Positions 22,306-39,387 of a stretch of 39,702 nucleotides of DNA are shown in pieces. Below the pieces are notes generated by a model. It made no database searches, was not told the origin of the DNA, and saw only the letters and a program-made list of their open reading frames with translations. Position 1 is the first letter of the stretch. Each line of letters opens with the position of its first letter. This DNA comes from Archangiaceae bacterium (GTDB taxonomy: Bacteria; Myxococcota; Myxococcia; Myxococcales; Myxococcaceae). Where the stretch lies: the NCBI GenBank assembly GCA_016879935.1, contig JAACJQ010000071.1, positions 1 through 39,702 of the forward strand, given 5' to 3'. The position numbers and the translations under genes were made by a program.

Positions 22306-23433
22306 TCAATGCGTGACCGGGCGGAACAACGCGAGCGCGCTGGTGAACCCATGCATCCACGTGCGGCCGCTGACGGGGCCGAACTCACCGTTGCAGAAGA
22401 AGCCGCCGAGCGGCGTGGTGGGGAACTTCGAGGCGAAGAGGCCTGCGTCATGGTCCTCGACGCCAAACAGCCCGCGGCCACGGCCCGTGCACGAGAACAT
22501 CAACGCGCCGGCCGGAGCGCTGGGCACCTTCGCCAGCTTCGCGACGAGCTCTTCTTCGGCCGCCCGCGCGTCACGCAGCATGAACTGCACGACCTGCAGC
22601 GGCTCGAGCACCGACGCGACGGCGACCGCTTTTCGTTTCGGCTCGAGGCCGACGAGGTTGCGAATGAGCAACTCCTGCGCGTCTGCGTGAACGGAGCCGG
22701 TCTTGAGGCCGACACCGACGACGAGCGAGTGACGCATGCGCTCCTGCACGTCGGGTGGCGCGGCCGCGTGCAGCTTCTGCATCACGTCGATGGGTGACTT
22801 GCCGTCGAGCTCGAGCAGCAGGTGGCCGTCGACGGCGGTCGCGAACATCGGGGCGCCGATCGGCCGGCAGCCCTGCGCGATGAGCGGCTCGACCGCGAGC
22901 TCTCCCGACAACGCCACGCAGACGGCGCCGGACGTGTGCACGCGTTCGTCGAGGAAGAGCCGGTGCGAGCCCGGCGTGCTGCCACCGCTCGCCATACCGC
23001 CCATCGCCACCACGCCGGGAAACGAGTCATCGAGCTGCTCGAGCGTGGCCTCGGCTTCGAACGAGAACGGGTCGCCGAAGAGCAGCACGGCCTTCGGAGC
23101 GTGGGAGAACGCCACCCGCTCGTTGCTGCGAACCGCGCGGGCTTCGAGCTGCACTCTCGGCAACGACGCAGCGACGACGGCGATGGCGGGCACGTCTTCG
23201 ACCTCGCGCGAGGCGCCGATGACGCCGGCTCCGGAGCAACCAACGAGCGTCGCGTTCGGGTAACGCTCACGCAACCGGCTGACGACGGCAGGTGCTTCTT
23301 TGAGCAGCCCCGACGAGACGAAGAGCAGCACGAGATCGGGCGGAGCGCCGAGCTCTTCGTCGAGCACTTCGATGGCGCGGCTCGCCGCGCCTGCTCCGGT
23401 GGTGTCGCGTGAGAGCGTCGAGGCCCACTTCAT
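22306..23433 (-). CDS. FIST-domain sensory protein
   Basis: A 375-residue stand-alone FIST protein. The FIST_N part has PDLVLLFVSSGLL, TLVGCSGAGVIG and KAVLLFGDPFSF. FIST_C covers the second half, with HSLVVGVGLKTG, ALMFSCTGRGRGLFG and the family-typical end PLGGFFCNGEFGPV. FIST domains occur in signalling proteins and are thought to bind small ligands such as amino acids. No output domain is fused here. ATG 23433 is chosen for its AGGAG five bases upstream; GTG 23439 is the alternative. It is cytoplasmic (no signal). It heads the minus-strand run leading to the TRAP genes, so it might sense the same ligand. That is a guess from context. Confidence 0.9.
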   Translation of the reverse strand: MKWASTLSRDTTGAGAASRAIEVLDEELGAPPDLVLLFVSSGLLKEAPAVVSRLRERYPNATLVGCSGAGVIGASREVEDVPAIAVVAASLPRVQLEARAVRSNERVAFSHAPKAVLLFGDPFSFEAEATLEQLDDSFPGVVAMGGMASGGSTPGSHRLFLDERVHTSGAVCVALSGELAVEPLIAQGCRPIGAPMFATAVDGHLLLELDGKSPIDVMQKLHAAAPPDVQERMRHSLVVGVGLKTGSVHADAQELLIRNLVGLEPKRKAVAVASVLEPLQVVQFMLRDARAAEEELVAKLAKVPSAPAGALMFSCTGRGRGLFGVEDHDAGLFASKFPTTPLGGFFCNGEFGPVSGRTWMHGFTSALALFRPVTH

Positions 23434-23492
23434 CGTCACTCCTGCCGCAGAACGTCGTGCAAAACGGTTGGCCGCTCCCTACACGAAGCGCC

Positions 23493-25903: not shown

Positions 25904-25949
25904 GCGTCTGACACCACACACCTTTCTCGCGAACGTGGCTGTCAGACGC
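25904..25949 (+). other. long stem-loop upstream of the giant gene
   Basis: GCGTCTGACA (25904-25913) is perfectly complementary to TGTCAGACGC (25940-25949). Immediately inside, CCAC (25914-25917) pairs with GTGG (25935-25938), with a one-base bulge at 25939. This gives a 14-bp stem with a 17-base loop. No T-tract follows on the plus strand, so it is not a textbook terminator. It lies in the 121-bp gap between the 93-residue membrane protein and the giant exported protein, ending 55 bp before the latter's start, where it could be a factor-dependent terminator, an mRNA-stability element or an operator. Confidence 0.6.
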
Positions 25950-26004
25950 CGCTTCGAGGTTTCAATGGGCTGGCGTGGGCCTTGCTGTAGCGTGCCCCGC
26001 GCGC

Positions 26005-29000
26005 ATGAGCCCTACAGCCCTTCTTCCGTGGTTGGTCGTGCAGGCCGCGTCGCTGAGCCAGAGTTCGGTTCCGGCGGCCGGCCAGTACGAGACGATTCTC
26101 ACTCTCGATGCTCCGGCGGCCGTGCATCTCTCGGCGCGTGGGCCCAGCGGAACGTCGTGTGAGGTGATCGACCGCGTGCGTGGGCCGTTCGCCCGCGCGG
26201 GCACCGTGGGACGCGTCAACTGCGAGCTCGATCTGCTGCTCGACGCGGGTCAGTACAAGGTGCGCGTCGAGTCACCGGCGAAAGGCAAAGGCACGGTCGC
26301 GATCTCGGCGGCAGTGTTCGGTGAGATCAACAAGGGCTCGGTGCAGCTGGCCAACGGCGCAGCCGTCGAGACGACACTCAAGCCCGCGCAGCAGGCCTCG
26401 TTCTGGCTCACGATGCCGACGCGCGGCGTGCCCTACGTTCGCATCAACGGCCGGCACGCAGGTGACGTGCGCTTGTGGCGCAACGGCGAGTGGCTCGAGC
26501 CGATCTCGCTGCGGCACACCACGACGACGAACACGCCCGGCTACCCGATGCACGAGTGGTGGCTCGATCAGGTGCTCGAAGCGGGCGATTACCAACTGGT
26601 CGTCTACGGGCGTGACAGCGTCACCGTGACGGGCTCGACCGTCGACGACTCCCTCACCGTCGAGCGTGGCTTTCGCCCTGGCCCCGTGGAGCGCTCCGTC
26701 TCGTTCACCCTGCCCGCCTCGGGCGTGCTCACGCTCGAGCTGCCGCGCACGCCGACCGCCGCGTACGTCTCGCTCGACAGCGCTCCTGAAGCGCAGGTCT
26801 CTCTCCAGCTCGCCGACCTGGGCGTCGACTCGTCGCTCTCGTTCAATTGGAGCTGCACGATTCCCAAAGGCGCCATCGTGCCCGAGTGCGGGAGCCGCAC
26901 GTTCAGCACGCCCGATCGCCGGGTGCTTCTGCTGAAGGGCCCGCGAGGCACGAAGGGCACGGTGGAGTGGGCGACCGCCGTGAACAACGATCTCGGATGG
27001 CTGACGTCGTGGCGCGGCGGTTACTACGGCGCGCCGAGCACCAACTTCCTCTTCTCGACGCGCATGCGCGGCCGCGTGATGGTGTCGACGCACGATCTGC
27101 CGATCGACTCCGACGCGGCGCCGCTGGGCTGTCAGCTCGAGACGGCCGAAGGGCTCAACGCACCGTTCCGCGTGCTCGCGCGCTCGATGACGAAGCTGAA
27201 CGACGGCGAGATGCTCGAGAAGTCGTTCAACTACGAAGAAGGCGGTGCGGTGATCTGGTTCGAGGTGACCTCGTCGAACCGCTATCGCGTGCGCACCGAT
27301 GGCGGCCGCAAGAACCGCTGCGAGGTCTATCGGCACAAGACAGACGGCACGCTCGAGCGCCTCACCCAGTCGAAGGCGGACGACACCGTTGGCTGCGATC
27401 AGGTGCTCTCGCTCGGCAAAGGCGAGTACCAGCTGCAGCTCTTCGGCGGGAACGCCGGCATCGAGAAGGTCGTGGTGCGCGAAGACTCGAAGCGCGACCT
27501 CAAGAAGGCGGCGGTGCGGAGCACGTGTCAGCTGCCTCCACTCGATCTCGGAGAAGGTCGCTACCGCCTCATTCTCACGCGCACCGGCAACATCACCGCG
27601 CGCGGCGTCTCGTTGACCGAGCTGCCGACCGATCTCTCGCAGCCGCTGCACGTGAGCCTCGACCCGCAGCAGACGCTGACGCTCCCGCTCGTGAAGGGAC
27701 CACCCTTCGTCGTTCGCTCGTCGGGTGGCTCGAGGTTCGGCTGCCAGATTCAGGGGGCTCCGTCGCCCGTCACCACGTCGGAGTGTTCGGTGCCCTCGCC
27801 AGCGAGTGGTGACGCCATCACGCTGTCGAACCCTGGCGAACTCCCCGTGCAGGTGACGGTGTTCCGGCCCGTCGCCGCGCCCATCGCCGGTGCGCTCACC
27901 TCGTATTCGCCGGCGCTCAAGCCCTTGCCCAAGCTCGTGCCCGAGCAACCGACGTGGTTCGACTTCGATCGCAGCCAGACGAACTCGGCCACCTTCGAGG
28001 TCGAGACGCCCGGGCTCTACAACGTGACGACGCTGGGCCTGCTGTCGACGTCGTGCCGGCTGCGCACGCCAGTCGTCGATCTCGTCGCGCAGAACTCGAG
28101 CGGAGGTCGTGGCCGCAACTGCCTCATTCAGACGTACCTGCAGAAGGGCCGCTATCTGCTGAGCGCCACGACGCAGGGCCAGAGCAAGGGCCGCGGCGCG
28201 CTCTTCCTGCTGCGCAAGCCGGCGAAGGAGTACGCGGGCCTCGGCGGCGAAGGTGAGTCATTCTTCCGCGTCGACGCGAACGAGCTCGTTCAGCAGAAGC
28301 TGGTCGTCGGAAAGGGCGGGCTGTTTCAGCTCGGTACGACCGCGCAGGGCGCGACGCTCATGTGCCGCCTCGATGACCCCCAGGGCTGGCCGGTCGAGAC
28401 CGTTCCGTCCCCCTGTGTCGGCGCGCGCAGCCTCACGGCAGGCACGTACCTGTGGACGCAACTGCCGCTCACCGTCGAGTCCATGCGGCGCACGAAGCTC
28501 GAGCGGCAGCGTGACCCGGTGGTGCTCAAGGGAAGCAAGCCGCATGGCATCGTGGCGTTCACCTGGTACGACGCCGAGCTCGGCTCCGATGGCAAAGACG
28601 AGTTCACGTTCTCGCTCGAAGGAGAGACCTCGCTCGACGTCGTGCTGACGCAGGGCATGCAGGGCCGCATCTTCAAGCTCGAGAAGGACCAGCCGCCGAA
28701 GGCCGTCGAAGTCATTGCGCCGCAGGTGTCGGCGTACGACTCGCAGCCCGAAGAGTCCGAGTATCAGGAGCCGCAGGGCGAGTCCGAATACGAGGGCGAG
28801 CGCGAGTACGACGGTGAAGGCGATTCAGAGCCAGTCGTCGCAGCCGCACCGAGTGGACCTGCGATGCGTTCAGCGCCGCCTCCGCCGAGCGGCGCGAAGA
28901 TCACGCTGCCTGCTGGCAGCTACAAACTCGTCACCGAGCACAGCAAGGGCGACGTCGGCATCACCTACAAGCTGCACTTCGGCTCGGCGGTGTTGATGCC

Positions 29001-31248
29001 CGGCATGAGCCGCACGCTGCCGGTGCCGACGACGATTCCGCTCGTGGTGCCGCGCGATGGAACGCTGCGCCTGCGCACGGAAGGCGACGCCGACGTTCGC
29101 TGCCGGCTCTTCGACGAGAAACGCAAGCTGGTGATGGAGGGCAGTGAGAACGGCGCCGACTGGAACTGTGCGCTCGCCGAGCCGGTGCTCAAGGGCCGCT
29201 ACACGCTCGTGCTCGAGAGCGAGACGCAGCTGGCGGGCGAGACGAAGCTGTCGCTCGCGCTCCCGCCGCTCGAAGACAAGGGCGCGTTCGCCGATGGCCA
29301 GAAACTGACGCTCGGTTCGTCGGTGATGCAGTTCACCGTGCCGCCAGGCGACGCGGTGCAGGAGCTCGTCGTGAAGGCCGGCGGCAAGACGCCGTTCTCG
29401 TGCGCGGTCGTTGGGCCCGAAGGCGTGGCAGCTCGACGTTCACGGGTGAGCGACTGCTCGATGCTCGTCTTGCCGAAGCAGGAGGCGTGGTCGCTGCGCC
29501 TGTGGACGACGGACGGCACGTCTCCCGTGGCGACGACGTTCAAGACGCGCACGCTGACGATGTCGGGCAACGAGATCTCGGCGAACCAGGCCCTGTCGAC
29601 CAGCGTCGCGAAGCCCGGTCGCTACAAGACTTCGCCGCAGGCGTTCTGTCTGCGCGGCAAGGCGACGGGCGTCTTCGAGAAGTGTGGCCCCGAAGTGTCG
29701 CTCGAGGCCGGCCCCGTGGTGTTCGCGGGCATCGGGTCCACTTCGACGCCAGTGCCGCTCGACGAGTCCCGCTTCGCGGCGTCGATGACGCCTGGGTCGT
29801 TCGAGCTCTCGCGCGCGACGCATCTGCAGACGGTGACCGCGAGCCAGCCGTCGCTCTTCCTGCTCTCGGTCGTGACGGGTTGGGGAGAAGCGGCTCCGCC
29901 CGCGTGCGCGTTCGATGGCGCTGGCACAGTGCGCGAGCGTCGGGAGTCGTCGTGTTTCGCCGTCAGCAAGGTTGGCAGCGAAGCGCTGGCGCGCGTGTGG
30001 GCCGCGACGGACGCCATCGTGCCGGCGACCGTCGTGCGGCGTGACGTCGCGATTCCGTCGAAGGTCGAGGCCCTCTCGCCCGGCCGTAAGCGCGTGACCT
30101 ACGCCTCCATCGGAGCGTTCGCGTTGCCGCCCAGCAGCCGTTCGCGTGTCGAAGCGACGCTGCCGAAAGACACGTGGGGTGTGCTCGTCGACGACGCTGG
30201 AAACGCGCTCGATCTCTGCGCGCCGACGAACGAGCTTCGTCGCTGCGTCGTCGTGGGCCAGGGCGGAAAGCTCGTGCTCATCGGTGGGGCTGATGGTCAG
30301 GCCGACCTGACGACCGTGCTGCTCGAGACCGCGCCGGCCGTCGTCTCGTTCACGGGCCTCTACGAAGACACGCCGCGCGCTCCGGGGACCGTGAGGCTCA
30401 CCGTGCCCTCGGCCGATCAGGATCGTTCGGTGCTCGTCGAAGGCGCGCTGCGCTGCACGCTGGTGCTGGGCACGGGAGAACGTGTCGCCGAGTGCCGCGC
30501 GAAGCTGCCTGCGAAGACGACGGCCGAACTCATCATCGAGCACGACGTGACGGCGTTGCGGGCGCTCGTGCACACCCAGGGGCGTGAACGCTGGGCGAGA
30601 CTGGGCATCGAGCTGCCGGTCGTCGCGGGGCCTGCGCTCCAGCCTGCCGTCGCCGTGCCGCTGCAGCAGGGCCGAATCGATCGCACGCTGGTGCTCTCAC
30701 AGAGCGCCGTCGTTCGCGTCGCGGCCGAGAGCGGCGTGTGTGGGCTCTTCAAGGGCAACGACCTGCTCGCCGTCGACGGCATCGACACCGGCTGCGAGCT
30801 GGTGCGCGTGCTCAACCCCGGCACCTACCGGCTGCTCGTTCGTCCGTTTGCCAGCCGCGCCATTCCCGGCAGCCTGCGCTGGCTCGCCGAGCCGGTGACG
30901 ACGTTGACCGAAGGCGTTGGCGCCGAGACGTGGCTCGCTCCAGGAGAAGTCCGCCTCTTCACCTTCGACACCAGAAACAAGGGCCGCGTCGGCCTCGGCG
31001 TGCAGGCGAAGAGCGAGAACCTCGAGTGCGCCATCTACAACGACGGCTACCAGGCCATCGGCGAGGGCTGTCACCAGTACGTGCAACTCGACAAGGGCCG
31101 TTTCCTGCTCACGGTGCGCAACCCGAATCGGTCGGGCGCCGCGCCGATTGCAGTGAAGCCCGTGTTGCTCGGTCTCTCGGGTGACTCGAACGACATTCCT
31201 CCCGAGTACCTGCAGGACTTCTTCGGCCGCGTGGGGATGACGCCATGA
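26005..31248 (+). CDS. giant exported protein of repeated Cys-paired beta modules
   Basis: A 1747-residue protein of no family I can name. The N-terminus (MSPTALLPWLVVQAASL) looks like a signal peptide, weak in charge; an upstream GTG at 25975 would add ARG-containing sequence and is possible. The body is nearly all beta and repeats a module of roughly 90-150 residues: a strand, a Cys, 14-25 residues, a second Cys, then Leu-x-x-Gly-x-Tyr-x-Leu. Examples are Cys52/Cys73, Cys684/Cys706, Cys1033/Cys1055 and Cys1675/Cys1689, and about a dozen such pairs are visible. Each pair probably makes a disulfide in an Ig- or PPC-like sandwich, which fits a periplasmic or extracellular place. An acidic Tyr/Glu linker splits it near 911-945. 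Its stop overlaps the A2M start (ATGA), implying joint production. Confidence 0.85.
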   Translation: MSPTALLPWLVVQAASLSQSSVPAAGQYETILTLDAPAAVHLSARGPSGTSCEVIDRVRGPFARAGTVGRVNCELDLLLDAGQYKVRVESPAKGKGTVAISAAVFGEINKGSVQLANGAAVETTLKPAQQASFWLTMPTRGVPYVRINGRHAGDVRLWRNGEWLEPISLRHTTTTNTPGYPMHEWWLDQVLEAGDYQLVVYGRDSVTVTGSTVDDSLTVERGFRPGPVERSVSFTLPASGVLTLELPRTPTAAYVSLDSAPEAQVSLQLADLGVDSSLSFNWSCTIPKGAIVPECGSRTFSTPDRRVLLLKGPRGTKGTVEWATAVNNDLGWLTSWRGGYYGAPSTNFLFSTRMRGRVMVSTHDLPIDSDAAPLGCQLETAEGLNAPFRVLARSMTKLNDGEMLEKSFNYEEGGAVIWFEVTSSNRYRVRTDGGRKNRCEVYRHKTDGTLERLTQSKADDTVGCDQVLSLGKGEYQLQLFGGNAGIEKVVVREDSKRDLKKAAVRSTCQLPPLDLGEGRYRLILTRTGNITARGVSLTELPTDLSQPLHVSLDPQQTLTLPLVKGPPFVVRSSGGSRFGCQIQGAPSPVTTSECSVPSPASGDAITLSNPGELPVQVTVFRPVAAPIAGALTSYSPALKPLPKLVPEQPTWFDFDRSQTNSATFEVETPGLYNVTTLGLLSTSCRLRTPVVDLVAQNSSGGRGRNCLIQTYLQKGRYLLSATTQGQSKGRGALFLLRKPAKEYAGLGGEGESFFRVDANELVQQKLVVGKGGLFQLGTTAQGATLMCRLDDPQGWPVETVPSPCVGARSLTAGTYLWTQLPLTVESMRRTKLERQRDPVVLKGSKPHGIVAFTWYDAELGSDGKDEFTFSLEGETSLDVVLTQGMQGRIFKLEKDQPPKAVEVIAPQVSAYDSQPEESEYQEPQGESEYEGEREYDGEGDSEPVVAAAPSGPAMRSAPPPPSGAKITLPAGSYKLVTEHSKGDVGITYKLHFGSAVLMPGMSRTLPVPTTIPLVVPRDGTLRLRTEGDADVRCRLFDEKRKLVMEGSENGADWNCALAEPVLKGRYTLVLESETQLAGETKLSLALPPLEDKGAFADGQKLTLGSSVMQFTVPPGDAVQELVVKAGGKTPFSCAVVGPEGVAARRSRVSDCSMLVLPKQEAWSLRLWTTDGTSPVATTFKTRTLTMSGNEISANQALSTSVAKPGRYKTSPQAFCLRGKATGVFEKCGPEVSLEAGPVVFAGIGSTSTPVPLDESRFAASMTPGSFELSRATHLQTVTASQPSLFLLSVVTGWGEAAPPACAFDGAGTVRERRESSCFAVSKVGSEALARVWAATDAIVPATVVRRDVAIPSKVEALSPGRKRVTYASIGAFALPPSSRSRVEATLPKDTWGVLVDDAGNALDLCAPTNELRRCVVVGQGGKLVLIGGADGQADLTTVLLETAPAVVSFTGLYEDTPRAPGTVRLTVPSADQDRSVLVEGALRCTLVLGTGERVAECRAKLPAKTTAELIIEHDVTALRALVHTQGRERWARLGIELPVVAGPALQPAVAVPLQQGRIDRTLVLSQSAVVRVAAESGVCGLFKGNDLLAVDGIDTGCELVRVLNPGTYRLLVRPFASRAIPGSLRWLAEPVTTLTEGVGAETWLAPGEVRLFTFDTRNKGRVGLGVQAKSENLECAIYNDGYQAIGEGCHQYVQLDKGRFLLTVRNPNRSGAAPIAVKPVLLGLSGDSNDIPPEYLQDFFGRVGMTP

Positions 31249-34200
31249 CGCCCGCTCCTTCTTCTCACCGGTTCACCACCATGACGCCCCTGTTCCGAAG
31301 CTTCGCCGTCGCCGCCGTTCTTCTCTCTGCCGTCGCGAGCGCGCAGTACACCGCCGCCGACGACGGGCAGCGTCCAGCCGGGAGCGGCACGCGCGTGCTG
31401 CCCGAGTCGTTCCTGCGCGGCTACGACCCCGTCACCGTCTACTTCGATGGCGATCAGGTCTCGTCGAAGGGCCCAGCCGATGACGGCCCGAAGTTCCTCT
31501 CCATCGCGCCGGCGTGGCCTGGTGCGTTCACCTGGGTCGACAAACGCACGCTGCAGTTCCGCCCCGCCGAGCCGTGGCCCGCACTGGCCCGCTTCGCCAT
31601 CGACGCGCGCGGCACCAAGCGCGTGCTCACGACGATGATGTCCGCGCCGTCGGCGATGGCGCCTGCGGCCGGGAGCGAAGGCCTGCGCCCGTTCCGCGTC
31701 GTCACCCTCACCTTCCCGCAGGCGCTGCCCATCGCGTCGCTGAAGAAGATGTTGTCGCTCGAGATTCGCGATCTGCCCGGCCTCGCCGACAGCCCGCGCA
31801 AGAAGGTGCAGAACTTCACGCTCGCGCCTCTTCCGCGTGCCTCGCAGCGAGACCCGGCGTCGTGGGCGCTCACCCTCGAAGACGACGTGCCCGAAGGAAA
31901 GCAGCTGGTCGTCTCGGTGAGCCTCGCGCTCGGCACCGAAGGCACCACGTTGTGGTCAGGCCGGCTCTCGACGCGCACGCCCTTCACGCTGCAGAGCGTT
32001 CGCTGCGGCAACGCCGAGTTCCCGCTCGTCGGTGGAGCGTCGACTCCGAAAGACCTCGCGCTCGGCTGCGGCAACCGCGGCGATCTTCCGCAGCTCGTGT
32101 TCTCGGCGCCGGTGGCCGATCTCACGCTCACCAGCCTTCGCAAGCTGGTGCACCTCGAGCCCGCGGTGCCCGACCTGCGCTTCACGCCGTACGGAGAGCG
32201 CGTGCAGCTCGGCGGCAAGTTCGTGCCCGACACGCTGTACAAGCTGACGCTCGGCACCGCGCCGATTCGTGACGACGCCGGCCGTGCGCTGCGCGACCTC
32301 AAGACCGCCGACGTCTACTTCCACCTCGGGTGGAAGACCTCGTTCCTGCGCTTCACCCAGTCGACCGCGCTCGTCGAGGCGCGTGGCCCGCGCATGGTGC
32401 CGCTGCAGGGCTACGGCGAAGCGAAGGCCGACGTGCGCGTGTACCGCGTCGACCCGCTGCACTCGGGCCTCTGGCCGTTCCCCTCCTCGCCCATCGTCAT
32501 CGACGAGCAGAGCGCGCCGCCGTTTCCCGGTGAGGAGCCGACCACGCCGAACGTTCCAGGCGCCCTCGACGCGCAGTCGCTGCAGCAGCACCTGCGCCTG
32601 CTCGGCAGCCCGCTCGTGTCACGGCTGGTCGACCTGCCGCTCGCCGACAAGGCAAACACGACGACCTTCGGGCTCGACCTCAAGCCGCTCGTCGACGATC
32701 GCCCGGGCACGTACCTCATCGGGCTGCGCCGCCTCACGGGCCGGCCCGAGCGCGCGTACGTGCGCGTTCAGATCACCAACCTCACGCTCACCAGCATCGA
32801 AGAGAACGCCCAGGCGATTCTGTACGTGCGCACGCTCGACACGGGCGAAGCGGTGCGTGGCGCGACGCTGCGCCTCGAAGGCACCGACGAGCTGAACGGG
32901 AACCCGATCTCGATCGAGAAGACCTCTGACGCCGATGGCCGCGTGGTGCTGATGCCGCTGAGCCACTGGGGCTCCATCACGCGCGTGTCGGTGCGTTCGG
33001 GTGACGACGTGCTGGTGCTCGACCCGCGCGAGACGTTGCCGACGTTCGCGAACAACCACTGGTCGAGCTACGGCGGCTGGCTGAACTGGCTCCTGGGCCA
33101 GGCGATTCCGCGGTCGCCGAACGACGCGACCCTCGGCTTCATCTTCAGCGAGCGCGCCATCTACAAGCCGGGCGAGCCGGTGTTCTTGAAGGCCTTCGTG
33201 CGCCGCAAGAGTGAAGGCGCGCTGCAGCTCGAGAACCTGGGCAGCTACCTCATTCGGGTTCGCGGGCCAGACGGCACCGTCTACCCCGTGACCGCGACGA
33301 CGACCCCGCTCAGCTCGATGGCGGGCACCTTCAAGGAAGACGGCGTGCCCACGGGTGAGTTCTCGGCCGAGCTCGTCTACGCGCCGATTCGTCAGCAGGA
33401 GACCATCGTCGCGACGCGCAGCTTCAAGATCGAGGCGTACCGCGTGCCGACGTTCGAGGTGCAGCTCACCGGCGCTCCGCGCGTGCGCAACGACGGCGCG
33501 TTCAAGGTGAAGGCCGTCGCGCGATACTACGCGGGCGGCAACGTCGCGAACCAACCGATCACGTGGAACGTCACGCAGCGGCCCTACAGCTGGTCTCCCA
33601 AAGGCCTCGAGGGTTTCCTGTTCGCGTCGTCGGCGCAGTTCGCGCGCCCGCAGTCGCAGCGTTCGCCCGGCGTCACCTCGCAGCAGGGAGAGCTCGACGA
33701 CAACGGCGCCGCTGACATCACGATGAACCCGCAGCTCGATCTCGACGGCTCTGGCCGCGTGTACCGCTTCGAGGCGACCGTCGTGGGCCCCGATGAGCAG
33801 CCCGTGACGAGCGCGACCGAGGTGAAGGCGCTGCCGCCGTTCGTGCTGGGGCTCAAGGTGCCGCGCTACCTCGAGAAGGCCACCGAGCTGAAGACCGAGC
33901 TGGTCACGGTCGGCATCGACGACAAGCCGTTCAAGGACCAGGAGGTGCGTGTTCGCCTGCTGCGCCGCGTGTGGCACTCGACGCTGCGCGAGACGAGCTT
34001 CGCGACCGGCCAGGCGAAGTACCAGACCGAGCAGGAGGACCTGCAGGTCGCGGAGAAGACGCTCAAGACGCTCGACGCGCCCCTCACGCAGGTGTTCCCC
34101 ATCACCGACTCGGGTGTGTACGTGGTCGAGCTCTTCGCGCGCGACAAGCTGGGCCGGGTGCAGACCCTCTCGGCCGACCTCTACATCGGCGGCAACACGC

Positions 34201-36989
34201 CGCAGTCGTGGCAGAAGTCGCGCGATGGCGTCTTCGAGGTGAAGACCGACAAGAAGTCGTACGTGCCCGGTGAGCTCGCGCACCTGCTCGTGCAGAGCCC
34301 GTACGCCACCGCCCGCGCGCTCGCGATCGTCGAAGACCCGACCGGTAACCGCTACTTCTGGAAGGACGTGTCGGGCTCTCGCGTCGTCATCGACGTGCCC
34401 ATCACCGACCGTCACGTGCCGAACCTGCCGGTGCACGTGGTGCTGATGCGAGGGCGCATCGGCGAGGGAAAGACCGATGACTCCCGCTACAAGCCGGCGA
34501 CCGCTGCGAGCAGCATCGAGCTCGAGGTCGAACCCGCGAAGAACCAGCTCACGGTGAACGTGCAGCACCCCGAGGTCGCGCGGCCCGGCACGAAGCAGGA
34601 CTTCACCATCACGCTGACCGACGATCAGAAGAAGCCGATTGGCGGCGAGGTCACGCTGTGGCTCGTGGACGAAGCGGTGCTCTCGCTCGCGAAGGAGGCC
34701 ACGCTCGACCCCCTCTCCGCGATGATTCGCCGCAACTCGCGCACCATCACCATTCGCGACTCGCGCAATCTGGTGGTCGGCCGCATCACCGAGCTCGAGG
34801 AGGATCCCGGCGGTGACGGTGGCGACGACGAGAGCCAGGGCGGCAAGCGGCTCGTGCGCAAGGAGTTCAAGACCGTTCCCTTCTACGCGGCGACGCTCGT
34901 GGTGCCGCCGAGCGGCAAGCTGGTGGTGCCGATTCAGCTCTCTGACGACCTCACCAACTTCCGCGTGCGCGCGGTGGCCGTCTCGGGAGCGACCCGCTTC
35001 GGGCTCAAGCAGTCGACCCTGCGCGTGCGTCTGCCGGTGCTCGTGCAGCCGCAGCTGCCGCGGCTCGTTCGCGTCGGCGACTCCTTCTGGCCCGGAGCCG
35101 TGGCGCGCGTCGTCGAAGGCCCTGATGGCCCTGCGAGCGTCGACATCTCCATCACCGGCGCCATCGACGGCAAGGCGAAGTCGAGCGAGCGCATCGAGCT
35201 GAAGTCGACGAAGGCGCAGTCGGTGCTCACGCCGGTGACGGTGAAGAACGTGCCGACCGGGAAAGAATCGGCGCTCACCGTTCGAGTCGACGTCACGCGA
35301 CTGTCGGACAAAGCCGGTGACGCGTTCGAGGTGAAGTTGCCGCTGCTGCCCGATCGCGCCATCGAACGCGCAGCCTCGACGCTCACCCTTCAGAACGGCA
35401 CCGCGGTGATCAAGCCCTTCCCCGAGCCGCCCCGGCCCGGCACCGCGACACAGTCGTACGTGTTCACGAACCAGCCTGGCGTGCTCGAGCTCGCCTCGAG
35501 CCTCGAGTACCTCTCTGCGTACCCGCACGGCTGTCTCGAGCAGCGCATGAGCCAGGTGTACCCAGACCTCGTGCTCGGCTCGCTGCTCAAGAAGCTCGAG
35601 CTCGACACCCGCTTCACGCCACGGGTGCAACAGAACACGAAGCAGCTCCTCGACGAGGTGGCCCAGTACCAGGACTCGAGCGGCTTCGTCGGTTACTGGC
35701 CCGGCACGTCGGGCAACGTGCAGCTCACCGCCGCCGCCGTCGAGTTCATGACGATGGCGAAGAAGGCGGGCATCAGCGTCGACGAGAAGGTGCGCACCCG
35801 CGCCATCGACGGCCTCAAGCGCGTGCTGCGCAAGGACTTCAACGGGCTCTGGTCGGACTATCGCTACAACCAGCAGGCGGCGGCGCTTCGGGCGCTCTCG
35901 AGCACCGGCGCGCTCGATGACAACTACGCGGTCGAGCTCTTCTACGGCCGCGCGGCGATGGACTCGACGGCGCTGGCCGATCTCACCTCGGCGATGGCGG
36001 AGCGGCCCAACGTGTTCCAGTCGAACCTGGGCACGCTCAAGGGAGAGCTGTGGGACGAGCTGGTGTTCAAGCTGGTCAAGGGCAACCAGGTGTTCGATCG
36101 CCTGCGCCGCGATCGCACGAGCTGGTCTGGGCTGTACCTGGGCAGCTCGGCCAGCGCCGTGGCCGCCGTGTGGGAAGCGCTGCTGCGCGTCGACCCGTCG
36201 AGCGAGAAGCACGCGCTGATTCGTGACGCGCTGCTGGCGAAGTCGACGGCGAACTCGGGCTTCGGCTCGACCTACGACAACCGCCGCGCCATCTCGGCGT
36301 TCGCGCTGTACCTGGAGAAGGCGCAGACCGGCAAAGGCAAGTCGACCATCACCATCAGCGGCCTGCCCGACGTGGTGCTCGACGACGCGAAGAAGGCCGG
36401 CCGCCGAATCACCGACTCCGAGCAGGTGCCCACCATCACCGTCTCGGGCGGCCCCGTGGGCGCGCGCGTGCAGGTGAAGTACCTGCCGCTGCAGCCGGGC
36501 GACCAGGCCGAGGCGAAGAAGCAGGGCCTCATCGTCAGCCGCAGCCTCACGCGGTACCCGGCCGATGGCAGCGCTCCGGTGAACGTCGAAGACAAGGCAG
36601 GCCAGACGCTGAAGGTGCCGCTGGGCGAGGTCATCGAGATTCACGCGCAGTTCACGACCGACGAAGCGCGCCAGCACCTGGCCTTCGTGGTGCCGTTCGC
36701 CGCGGGCCTCGAGCCGATGAACCCGAACCTCGAGACGTCGAGCAGCGACGCGAAGCCTTCGCAGGCCGACTCCATCACGCCGACGTACGTGCAGCGCCTC
36801 GACGGCGAGGTTCGCTACGCGTTCACCGAGATTCCGCGCGGCACGCACACGTTCCACTTCCGCGTGCGGGCGTCGAGCGAGGGCAGCTTCGTGCACCCGC
36901 CTCCGACGGCCGAGCTGATGTATCGCGAAGAGATTCGCGGGCGCGGCGTCGGCCAGCGCATCGTGGTGACCGGCACCCGCCAGCAGTGA
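31245..36989 (+). CDS. yfhM: bacterial alpha-2-macroglobulin with thioester
   Basis: A 1914-residue A2M-family protein, somewhat longer than the E. coli protein (about 1650). A signal peptide follows a short extension (FRSFAVAAVLLSAVASA). No lipobox Cys is seen, unlike E. coli YfhM. Family blocks in order: SERAIYKPGEPVFLKAFVRR (MG2-type, about residue 636), KTDKKSYVPGELAHLLVQS, LWLVDEAVLSLAKE, VPIQLSDDLTNFRVRAVAV, and the thioester site YPHGCLEQRM with Cys1430, followed by an alpha-helical thioester-domain region. The thioester covalently traps attacking proteases. ATG 31245 is preferred for its ATGA overlap with the giant gene; ATG 31281 has no clear ribosome binding site. The symbol denotes the family, not proven orthology. 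PBP1C follows 7 bp later. Confidence 0.95.
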   Translation: MTPAPSSHRFTTMTPLFRSFAVAAVLLSAVASAQYTAADDGQRPAGSGTRVLPESFLRGYDPVTVYFDGDQVSSKGPADDGPKFLSIAPAWPGAFTWVDKRTLQFRPAEPWPALARFAIDARGTKRVLTTMMSAPSAMAPAAGSEGLRPFRVVTLTFPQALPIASLKKMLSLEIRDLPGLADSPRKKVQNFTLAPLPRASQRDPASWALTLEDDVPEGKQLVVSVSLALGTEGTTLWSGRLSTRTPFTLQSVRCGNAEFPLVGGASTPKDLALGCGNRGDLPQLVFSAPVADLTLTSLRKLVHLEPAVPDLRFTPYGERVQLGGKFVPDTLYKLTLGTAPIRDDAGRALRDLKTADVYFHLGWKTSFLRFTQSTALVEARGPRMVPLQGYGEAKADVRVYRVDPLHSGLWPFPSSPIVIDEQSAPPFPGEEPTTPNVPGALDAQSLQQHLRLLGSPLVSRLVDLPLADKANTTTFGLDLKPLVDDRPGTYLIGLRRLTGRPERAYVRVQITNLTLTSIEENAQAILYVRTLDTGEAVRGATLRLEGTDELNGNPISIEKTSDADGRVVLMPLSHWGSITRVSVRSGDDVLVLDPRETLPTFANNHWSSYGGWLNWLLGQAIPRSPNDATLGFIFSERAIYKPGEPVFLKAFVRRKSEGALQLENLGSYLIRVRGPDGTVYPVTATTTPLSSMAGTFKEDGVPTGEFSAELVYAPIRQQETIVATRSFKIEAYRVPTFEVQLTGAPRVRNDGAFKVKAVARYYAGGNVANQPITWNVTQRPYSWSPKGLEGFLFASSAQFARPQSQRSPGVTSQQGELDDNGAADITMNPQLDLDGSGRVYRFEATVVGPDEQPVTSATEVKALPPFVLGLKVPRYLEKATELKTELVTVGIDDKPFKDQEVRVRLLRRVWHSTLRETSFATGQAKYQTEQEDLQVAEKTLKTLDAPLTQVFPITDSGVYVVELFARDKLGRVQTLSADLYIGGNTPQSWQKSRDGVFEVKTDKKSYVPGELAHLLVQSPYATARALAIVEDPTGNRYFWKDVSGSRVVIDVPITDRHVPNLPVHVVLMRGRIGEGKTDDSRYKPATAASSIELEVEPAKNQLTVNVQHPEVARPGTKQDFTITLTDDQKKPIGGEVTLWLVDEAVLSLAKEATLDPLSAMIRRNSRTITIRDSRNLVVGRITELEEDPGGDGGDDESQGGKRLVRKEFKTVPFYAATLVVPPSGKLVVPIQLSDDLTNFRVRAVAVSGATRFGLKQSTLRVRLPVLVQPQLPRLVRVGDSFWPGAVARVVEGPDGPASVDISITGAIDGKAKSSERIELKSTKAQSVLTPVTVKNVPTGKESALTVRVDVTRLSDKAGDAFEVKLPLLPDRAIERAASTLTLQNGTAVIKPFPEPPRPGTATQSYVFTNQPGVLELASSLEYLSAYPHGCLEQRMSQVYPDLVLGSLLKKLELDTRFTPRVQQNTKQLLDEVAQYQDSSGFVGYWPGTSGNVQLTAAAVEFMTMAKKAGISVDEKVRTRAIDGLKRVLRKDFNGLWSDYRYNQQAAALRALSSTGALDDNYAVELFYGRAAMDSTALADLTSAMAERPNVFQSNLGTLKGELWDELVFKLVKGNQVFDRLRRDRTSWSGLYLGSSASAVAAVWEALLRVDPSSEKHALIRDALLAKSTANSGFGSTYDNRRAISAFALYLEKAQTGKGKSTITISGLPDVVLDDAKKAGRRITDSEQVPTITVSGGPVGARVQVKYLPLQPGDQAEAKKQGLIVSRSLTRYPADGSAPVNVEDKAGQTLKVPLGEVIEIHAQFTTDEARQHLAFVVPFAAGLEPMNPNLETSSSDAKPSQADSITPTYVQRLDGEVRYAFTEIPRGTHTFHFRVRASSEGSFVHPPPTAELMYREEIRGRGVGQRIVVTGTRQQ

Positions 36990-36996
36990 GGACGTG

Positions 36997-39387
36997 ATGG
37001 CGCGCTGGCGAACGGCACTGACGACGTGGCTCTCGGCGCACCGCCGCCAGGTGCTGCTCGGGCTCGTCATGTCGTCCGTCGTGGGAAGCGTGATGTTCTG
37101 GCGCTCTCTCGACGACGCGCTCTCGCCGCGCAAGCCGTCACACGTGCTGCTCGATCGCCGCGGACGCTTCCTGGGCGAGCTGCCGGGCACCCACGAGGCG
37201 TACGGCTTCTGGCCGCTGCCAGCGACGCTGCCCGAGAAGGTCGTCGTCACCACGCTCGAGACCGAAGATCGCACCTTCTTCGAGCACGACGGCATCGCGT
37301 GGCGCTCCGTCGCGAGGGCGGCCTGGCAGAACGTCAGCAACGCGCGCGTCATCTCGGGAGCGAGCACGATTCCGATGCAGGTCGCGCGGCTGCAGCACCC
37401 GCGCTCGCGCACCATCGTCGCCAAGGTGCACGAGGCTGCCGAAGGGCTGCTGCTCACCCGTCGTCACGGCCACGACGCGATCTTGCGGCAGTACCTCACC
37501 ATCGCGCCGTACGGGAACCGCACCCACGGCATCGTGCGCGCGGCGAACCTGTACTTCGACAAGCCCATCGACGACCTGTCGTGGCTGCAGGCGGCCTACC
37601 TCGCGGCGCTCCCGCAGCAGCCCAGCCGCATGTCGCCGTGGACGAAAGATGGCCACGAGCGCGCGATGGCGAGAGCACGGCGAATTCTCAATCAACTGCA
37701 CGAGCGTGGTGTCATCGGCGACGAAGACCTGCACGTCGCGCTCACGTCAGACCTCGCGCTCTCACGGCACCCGCTGCGGCCGGTGGAGTCGATGCACGCG
37801 GTGCTCGCGTGGAGCCGGCGGATTCCAGACGACGGCTCGGTCATTCACCGCACCACCATCGATCTCGATCTGCAGCGCGAGACGTACCAGGCGCTGACGA
37901 AGAACCTCGACTCGCTGCGCACGTCTGGCGCAGGCAACACGGCTGGCGTGGTGGTCGAGCTGCCCGGCGGCGAGCTGCGTGCGTACGTGGGGAGCGCCGA
38001 CTACTTCGACGACGAGCACCGCGGCGGCATCGACTACCTCACGACGCGGCGATCTCCCGGCTCGGCGCTCAAGCCCTTCATCTACGCGATGGCGCTCGAG
38101 CGCGGTGGCCACACGGCGGCGAGCGAACTGCCAGACACACCAGTGGAGTTCGCGACGGCGACCGGCGGGCTCTACGTGCCCGAGAACATGACGCACACGT
38201 TCCTCGGGCCGATGCTCTTGCGGCAGGCGCTGGGCAACTCGCGCAACATTCCCGCGCTGCGCGTGCTGTCGGAGCTCGGCGTCGACCGCGTCGTGCAGCG
38301 GCTCGAGCACGGCGGGGTGAAGCAGGTGAACTACGACCCCGACGCGTACGGGCTGACGCTCGCGATGGGCTCGCTCCACGTGACGCCGCTCGAGCTGGCG
38401 CAGCTGTACACGGCGCTCGCGAACAAAGGCGTGACGGTGCCGCTCAGGCGCTTCGTGGACGAGCCGGTGACGCCCGGCGTTCGTCTGCTCAACGAAGACG
38501 CGGCGATGCTGACGGCGCACATTCTGGCTGACTCCGAGGCGCGCAGGCCGGCGTTCCCACCCGGAGGACCGCTCGACTTCGACATGGCCGTCGCGGTGAA
38601 GACGGGCACGAGCCAGGGGTATCGCGATGCGTGGGCGGCTGCGTTCTCCGATCGCCTGCTGGTGGTGACGTGGGTCGGCAATCACGACTGGCGCCGCATG
38701 AACGGCGTCTCGGGAGCGCTCGCGGCTGCTCCCGCTGCGCACGACGTCTTCGATCGCCTGAGCGACGACGTTCGGCCCTGGCAGCCACCTGCCCTCACCT
38801 TCCCGCTGCCGTCACAGTCAGTCGCCGTCGACGTGTGCCCACTCTCGGGAAAGCTGCCGGGCCCGACGTGTCCGCACGTGAAGACCGAGCACTTCGTGCG
38901 TGGCACCGAGCCGAGCGAGCCCTGCCCCTTTCACGCGAACGTGCGCATCGACACCCGCACCGGGTTGCTCGCCGGCCCGACCTGTCCCGAGAGCGTCGTG
39001 GTGACGAAGACGATGCTCGCGCTGCCCGAGGTCTACGCGCCGTGGGCCCGCAAGCAGCGCTTGTCGATCGCGCCGACCGCCGACTCGCCGTTGTGCCCAT
39101 CGAACGATCCGACCGTGCGCACCGTGCGCATTCGTGAACCCGCGACCGCGAGCCGGTTCCTCTTCGACCCCGACACGCCACCCGAGCTGTCGACGGTGAA
39201 GCTCTCTGCCGCCGTCCAGCCCGCGACCGAGGAGGTGGTCTGGGTCGTCGATGGAACGCCGATCGCGCGAGTTGGTTACCCGCACGAAGCTCGGTGGACA
39301 CTCACGCCAGGCACGCACGTGATTCGCGCGGTGCTGGCCGGAGGTCGAGAAACGAGCGCACCGATCAGAATCGTCGTCGACGACTGA
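36997..39387 (+). CDS. pbpC: penicillin-binding protein 1C
   Basis: A 796-residue bifunctional class A PBP of the 1C type. A membrane anchor lies at about 18-36. The glycosyltransferase domain has LETEDRTFFEHDG (Glu90 catalytic) and GASTIPMQVARL. The transpeptidase has SALK (Ser356-Lys359), SRN (415-417) and KTG (535-537). The C-terminal part has the Cys-rich block of PBP1C (VCPLSGKLPGPTC, EPCPFH, GPTCPE) and a beta-rich end typical of BiPBP_C. It polymerises and cross-links peptidoglycan at the periplasmic face. ATG 36997 has GAGG five bases upstream; a GTG one codon earlier is possible. PBP1C beside an A2M gene is a widespread pairing, proposed to couple protease trapping with wall repair. 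Confidence 0.96.
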   Translation: MARWRTALTTWLSAHRRQVLLGLVMSSVVGSVMFWRSLDDALSPRKPSHVLLDRRGRFLGELPGTHEAYGFWPLPATLPEKVVVTTLETEDRTFFEHDGIAWRSVARAAWQNVSNARVISGASTIPMQVARLQHPRSRTIVAKVHEAAEGLLLTRRHGHDAILRQYLTIAPYGNRTHGIVRAANLYFDKPIDDLSWLQAAYLAALPQQPSRMSPWTKDGHERAMARARRILNQLHERGVIGDEDLHVALTSDLALSRHPLRPVESMHAVLAWSRRIPDDGSVIHRTTIDLDLQRETYQALTKNLDSLRTSGAGNTAGVVVELPGGELRAYVGSADYFDDEHRGGIDYLTTRRSPGSALKPFIYAMALERGGHTAASELPDTPVEFATATGGLYVPENMTHTFLGPMLLRQALGNSRNIPALRVLSELGVDRVVQRLEHGGVKQVNYDPDAYGLTLAMGSLHVTPLELAQLYTALANKGVTVPLRRFVDEPVTPGVRLLNEDAAMLTAHILADSEARRPAFPPGGPLDFDMAVAVKTGTSQGYRDAWAAAFSDRLLVVTWVGNHDWRRMNGVSGALAAAPAAHDVFDRLSDDVRPWQPPALTFPLPSQSVAVDVCPLSGKLPGPTCPHVKTEHFVRGTEPSEPCPFHANVRIDTRTGLLAGPTCPESVVVTKTMLALPEVYAPWARKQRLSIAPTADSPLCPSNDPTVRTVRIREPATASRFLFDPDTPPELSTVKLSAAVQPATEEVVWVVDGTPIARVGYPHEARWTLTPGTHVIRAVLAGGRETSAPIRIVVDD

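Follow-up and report, generated by a model that had tools for sequence, protein, structure and literature searches.

The locus analysed here raises the question of whether a giant exported protein without a known family, encoded directly upstream of an A2M gene and a PBP1C gene (pbpC), is a member of the same unit, and of what it would do there. That A2M lies next to PBP1C is a known pairing, as an earlier note on this DNA had stated, and the standing hypothesis for this adjacency is a protease trap working with wall repair (PMC5764988, PMC3328433). The window, i.e. the whole stretch of 39 702 bp that was analysed, is an entire contig (G000:C394) of a 9.5-Mb genome in 445 contigs. Reading of the open frames placed three co-directional genes on its plus strand, in the order giant–A2M–pbpC, and all features given below for these genes lie on that strand. 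The gene for the giant (1747 aa, 26005..31248) begins at an ATG, at or near which its orthologues also begin, with an alternative in-frame GTG at 25975. Its stop overlaps the A2M start in an ATGA (31245..31248), which places the A2M-frame start codon at −4. The A2M gene (31245..36989) encodes 1914 aa and is followed by PBP1C (797 aa, 36994..39387), 315 bp past which the contig ends. The stretch that separates the giant from the gene upstream of it contains an inverted repeat, GCGTCTGACA...TGTCAGACGC (25904..25949, no strand assigned), which occurs as a single copy in the window and, from its sequence, is a possible terminator or regulatory site. A 1612-aa open frame antisense to A2M was rejected as a gene, being an ordinary by-product of high G+C. 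A protein with FIST N and FIST_C domains, encoded on the minus strand at 22306–23439, has apparently no relation to the triad.

Wherever a triad locus offered enough sequence, the order giant–A2M–pbpC was kept, even with giants that are only about 25 % identical. Of 32 loci, 31 have an A2M-frame start (ATG, GTG or TTG) at −4 relative to the giant's TGA. Exceptions were L147, with CTG at −4, and the fragmentary L200, which deviates. Because the order persists at this level of identity and the 4-bp overlap recurs in 31 of the 32 loci, the arrangement is far beyond chance. The earlier note had proposed a survey of Myxococcota for this order and had described an overlap between the giant and A2M; the order and the overlap were both confirmed across loci. 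Its placing of PBP1C 7 bp behind A2M holds in the window from the ATG at 36997 (4 bp from the alternative GTG start at 36994) and does not extend to other loci, where the spacing ranged from about −11 to +737 bp. Co-variation of the giant's length, also expected there, was not seen, the length being nearly fixed (mostly 1737–1811 aa among the measured orthologues). No flanking gene was widely shared; no open-frame family occurred in more than 6 of the 32 loci, mostly near relatives, and the unit therefore consists of these three genes.

Within the same family, whose named relatives in our set are Myxococcaceae MAGs and Archangium, the giant was detected in 28 of 59 genomes and an A2M orthologue (>1900 bits in the best piece) in those same 28. 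Its presence was patchy, extending to 13 of 26 genera. A sample of 193 genomes from the phylum was searched with a single-protein query for the giant and a threshold of E up to 1e-100 for A2M. The A2M was present in 46 genomes, all 46 of which carried the giant, and neither was found in 146; the genomes are related, so these counts overstate independence. No intact partial triad was seen among the 193. A 47th giant, in a genome without a strong A2M match (G068), is frameshifted and adjoins truncated A2M and pbpC pieces, and MAG sequence errors are a possible source of its broken genes. This apparently decaying triad (L199 6705–12123, minus strand, reverse-complement coordinates) has the giant in three pieces. 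Among the named triad loci are those of Archangium violaceum Cb vi76, Archangium lansinium MIWBW and Hyalangium versicolor H56D21, of a 2.7-Mb Cystobacterineae MAG (Th196P3bin117) and of several Deltaproteobacteria/Myxococcota MAGs; these names come from a scan with two short peptide patterns, and absence from the list is uninformative. Our study shows that in Myxococcota inheritance and loss affect the giant, the thioester A2M and PBP1C jointly, and the three-gene unit described in the earlier note is real, in its order and in its joint inheritance across the phylum. A literature search, which excluded most subscription journals, found no paper on the giant–A2M–pbpC triad.

Such a pattern could also be left by co-regulated neighbours that serve a shared envelope-stress response with no contact between their products, the giant having a task of its own. 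The unconserved spacing of PBP1C is in keeping with this, as is the lower conservation of the giant, which stands at 33 % in the most distant family member compared to 52 % for A2M and 52 % for PBP1C. However, all-or-none inheritance at phylum-scale divergence, a conserved overlap and the lack of any other conserved neighbour exceed the usual traces of shared regulation, and we regard co-regulation by itself as an unlikely explanation.

The A2M of the window gave macroglobulin, bait and TED matches (bMG10, 1e-25; A2M_BRD, 3e-18; A2M, 2e-11). The bait-region domain (A2M_BRD) spans residues 998–1148 (34236..34688) and the thioester motif CLEQ lies at 35532..35543; it is present in nearly all orthologues and conforms to the CxEQ thioester of type I A2Ms. 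Two triad A2Ms have lost the thioester cysteine while the triad is kept, namely L084 (SLEQ, from the 2.7-Mb Cystobacterineae MAG) and L152 (NAEA). The genome that contains the window encodes a second A2M of 1764 aa with GCVEQ (L195 779–10419; G000:C123 12778–22418). The gene 60 bp ahead of it specifies another large protein, of 1428 aa and with nine He_PIG Ig-like repeats, that is unrelated to the giant. PBP1C comprises an N-terminal transmembrane segment, transglycosylase, transpeptidase and BiPBP_C, and scored 516 bits against the NCBIfam equivalog TIGR02073 (cut-off 494). It retains the catalytic SxxK and KTG motifs and appears to be active.

The signal peptide of the window A2M (31245..31343) ends at an apparent signal peptidase I site, between ASA and QY, and has no lipoprotein box after it of the kind found in ECAM. 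The mature N-terminus of triad A2Ms usually follows an AxA-type site and starts with Q. Genomes without the giant commonly keep a different A2M beside pbpC, and some genomes hold both kinds (G010). By one fixed pattern rule, a lipobox was present in 33 of 37 giant-less A2Ms (36 by eye) compared to 2 of 31 triad A2Ms; these two (L143 and L145) have a credible site for signal peptidase I in addition to their lipobox-like motif. All triad A2Ms fall into a single clade (support 1.0). The earlier note's concern that the giant might be absent where A2M–pbpC is kept applies literally to the giant-less genera, but the A2M in these belongs to another clade and the orthologous A2M was not seen without the giant in the family and phylum samples. 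Genetically, the giant is thus the obligate companion of a non-lipidated, type I-like A2M, which appears to have lost the lipid anchor carried by its relatives.

Sequence searches of the giant against Pfam, NCBIfam and PDB gave no convincing match, and by this measure it represents a new, uncharacterised family of large proteins, about 1750 aa long. It has a probable N-terminal signal sequence (residues ~1–18, 26005..26058), with a hydrophobic N-terminus across orthologues and no lipobox, and has no membrane anchor of its own. The 30 cysteines of the window giant are each kept in at least 30 of 35 aligned sequences and fall into 14 local pairs and two further residues, Cys376 and Cys508, the pairing being inferred from spacing; an oxidising compartment is therefore implied. 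An acidic low-complexity hinge lies at residues ~905–964 (28717..28896) and is constant in position and composition among the measured orthologues (59–101 aa, 19–40 % Asp+Glu). AlphaFold2 predicted two all-beta arms with this acidic linker between them: an N arm of sandwich modules (residues 20–900, 26062..28704; pLDDT 88.9, pTM 0.80) and a C arm (residues 963–1747, 28891..31245; pLDDT 86.6, pTM 0.61), which is closed by a short conserved helix (EYLxDFF). Because of the signal sequences, the cysteines and the known families, it is strongly implied that the giant and A2M are exported and that PBP1C is the membrane-anchored member.

Two modules of the AlphaFold2 model were matched by VIA-align to the collagen-binding domain of ColG (1nqj) and are PPC-like: residues 641–737 (27925..28215, Cys684/Cys706; Z 13.1, 2.1 Å, 92 residues) and residues 1631–1723 (30895..31173, Cys1675/Cys1689; Z 12.1, 1.9 Å, 87 residues). 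The other modules are beta sandwiches in the model. Across the whole giant, profile comparison found seven modules to be related (near Cys52, 439, 684, 787, 1033, 1579 and 1675; best pairs 95–97 % probability). The Pfam PPC profile (PF04151) had no match in the window giant at E up to 1; of 31 N-half members, two matched it weakly, with a best E of 0.0044. The PPC matches concern single domains of low sequence identity; they are a predicted likeness of fold and indicate no function. Relationship of the modules to MG domains or to the C-terminal domain of PBP1C was rejected (best probability 13 % by profile comparison), as was a single BiPBP_C match in one giant orthologue (E 0.00018), which profile comparison did not support. 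Whole-arm Foldseek matches to complement, A2M, neuropilin and botulinum HA had TM-scores of ~0.1 and reflect only a resemblance among proteins of many beta domains. Next after the collagenase domains came PliG, a periplasmic inhibitor of g-type lysozyme (Z 10.7–11.7, 2.5–2.7 Å), by which the giant might be an inhibitor or decoy whose array of PPC/PliG-like modules binds peptidoglycan hydrolases, the unit then joining protease trap, hydrolase inhibitor and wall repair. However, the matches to the PPC domains of collagenases are no poorer and the fold is common, and we consider such an inhibitor decidedly improbable.

The earlier note had suggested a surface scaffold, a receptor for trapped proteases or a periplasmic spacer. 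These are indistinguishable by sequence, although the loss of the lipobox would favour a docking role. As the giant lacks its own anchor, it could tether A2M only via something else, such as PBP1C, peptidoglycan or the outer membrane. Loss of the lipid anchor could alternatively mean that A2M and the giant are released outside. The two would then form an extracellular unit beyond the outer membrane, protecting a cell or the swarm against its own proteases and those of prey or rivals, which agrees with an A2M signal peptide that lacks a lipobox, a giant without a membrane anchor and the presence of PPC-like domains, which are typical of secreted proteins. It is quite unlikely, however, given that PBP1C, by family a periplasmic enzyme of the inner membrane, belongs to the same unit, and that no outer-membrane export signal was recognised in the giant (CHU_C E 0.007 at best). 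We give roughly even weight to the locus being an inherited three-protein envelope-defence unit with the giant as docking partner of A2M, a role proposed because of the missing lipid anchor and the analogy with MagB and MagD. By that analogy, the giant probably holds the protease trap in place as a docking scaffold. Its two disulphide-stitched beta-sandwich arms, partly PPC-like, would form the scaffold together with the acidic hinge, and would keep the soluble, non-lipidated A2M close to the inner membrane, the wall and PBP1C, a placing that the lipid anchor provides in the A2M's relatives and MagB provides for MagD of P. aeruginosa. Whether the giant goes further and bridges A2M and PBP1C, coupling protease trapping to wall repair on the spot with a protein scaffold in place of the lipid anchor, is more doubtful, and we put this forward tentatively.

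Among known systems, the type I pair ECAM/YfhM–pbpC of Escherichia coli resembles the triad in its CxEQ thioester, bait region, MG domains and adjacent pbpC. A lipoprotein box is present in ECAM, and its partner PBP1c has a single transmembrane segment (PMC3328433), whereas the triad A2M is nearly always without the box and has the giant gene coupled upstream; a lipobox-type A2M–pbpC pair is often found on its own in related genomes. The Mag complex of P. aeruginosa (MagA–F), built around a type II A2M, also has its A2M made with operon partners; MagD binds these 1:1 and requires MagB for its stability (PMC5764988). MagB is the partner that both holds this A2M at the membrane and stabilizes it, and the giant, although unrelated, may be comparable in its proposed role. 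MagD has no thioester, whereas the triad A2M does, and the Mag partners are of 26–60 kDa in an operon without pbpC, compared to a giant and pbpC in the triad. Pfam searches gave no match of the giant to the MagA, B, C, E or F partner families, and no other conserved neighbours were found at triad loci. The PPC/collagen-binding domains of clostridial collagenases share their beta-sandwich fold with several giant modules (Z 12–13, ~2 Å), but the latter have no attached protease and form a tandem array with conserved cysteine pairs. PliG shares the fold class of single giant modules, and is itself a single-domain protein. In summary, the A2M–PBP1C module is known, and what is new is the giant family as its third member. 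The hypothesis of a trap combined with repair has had little direct test so far, and a phylum-wide obligate third partner tied to the loss of the anchor offers a concrete handle on it.
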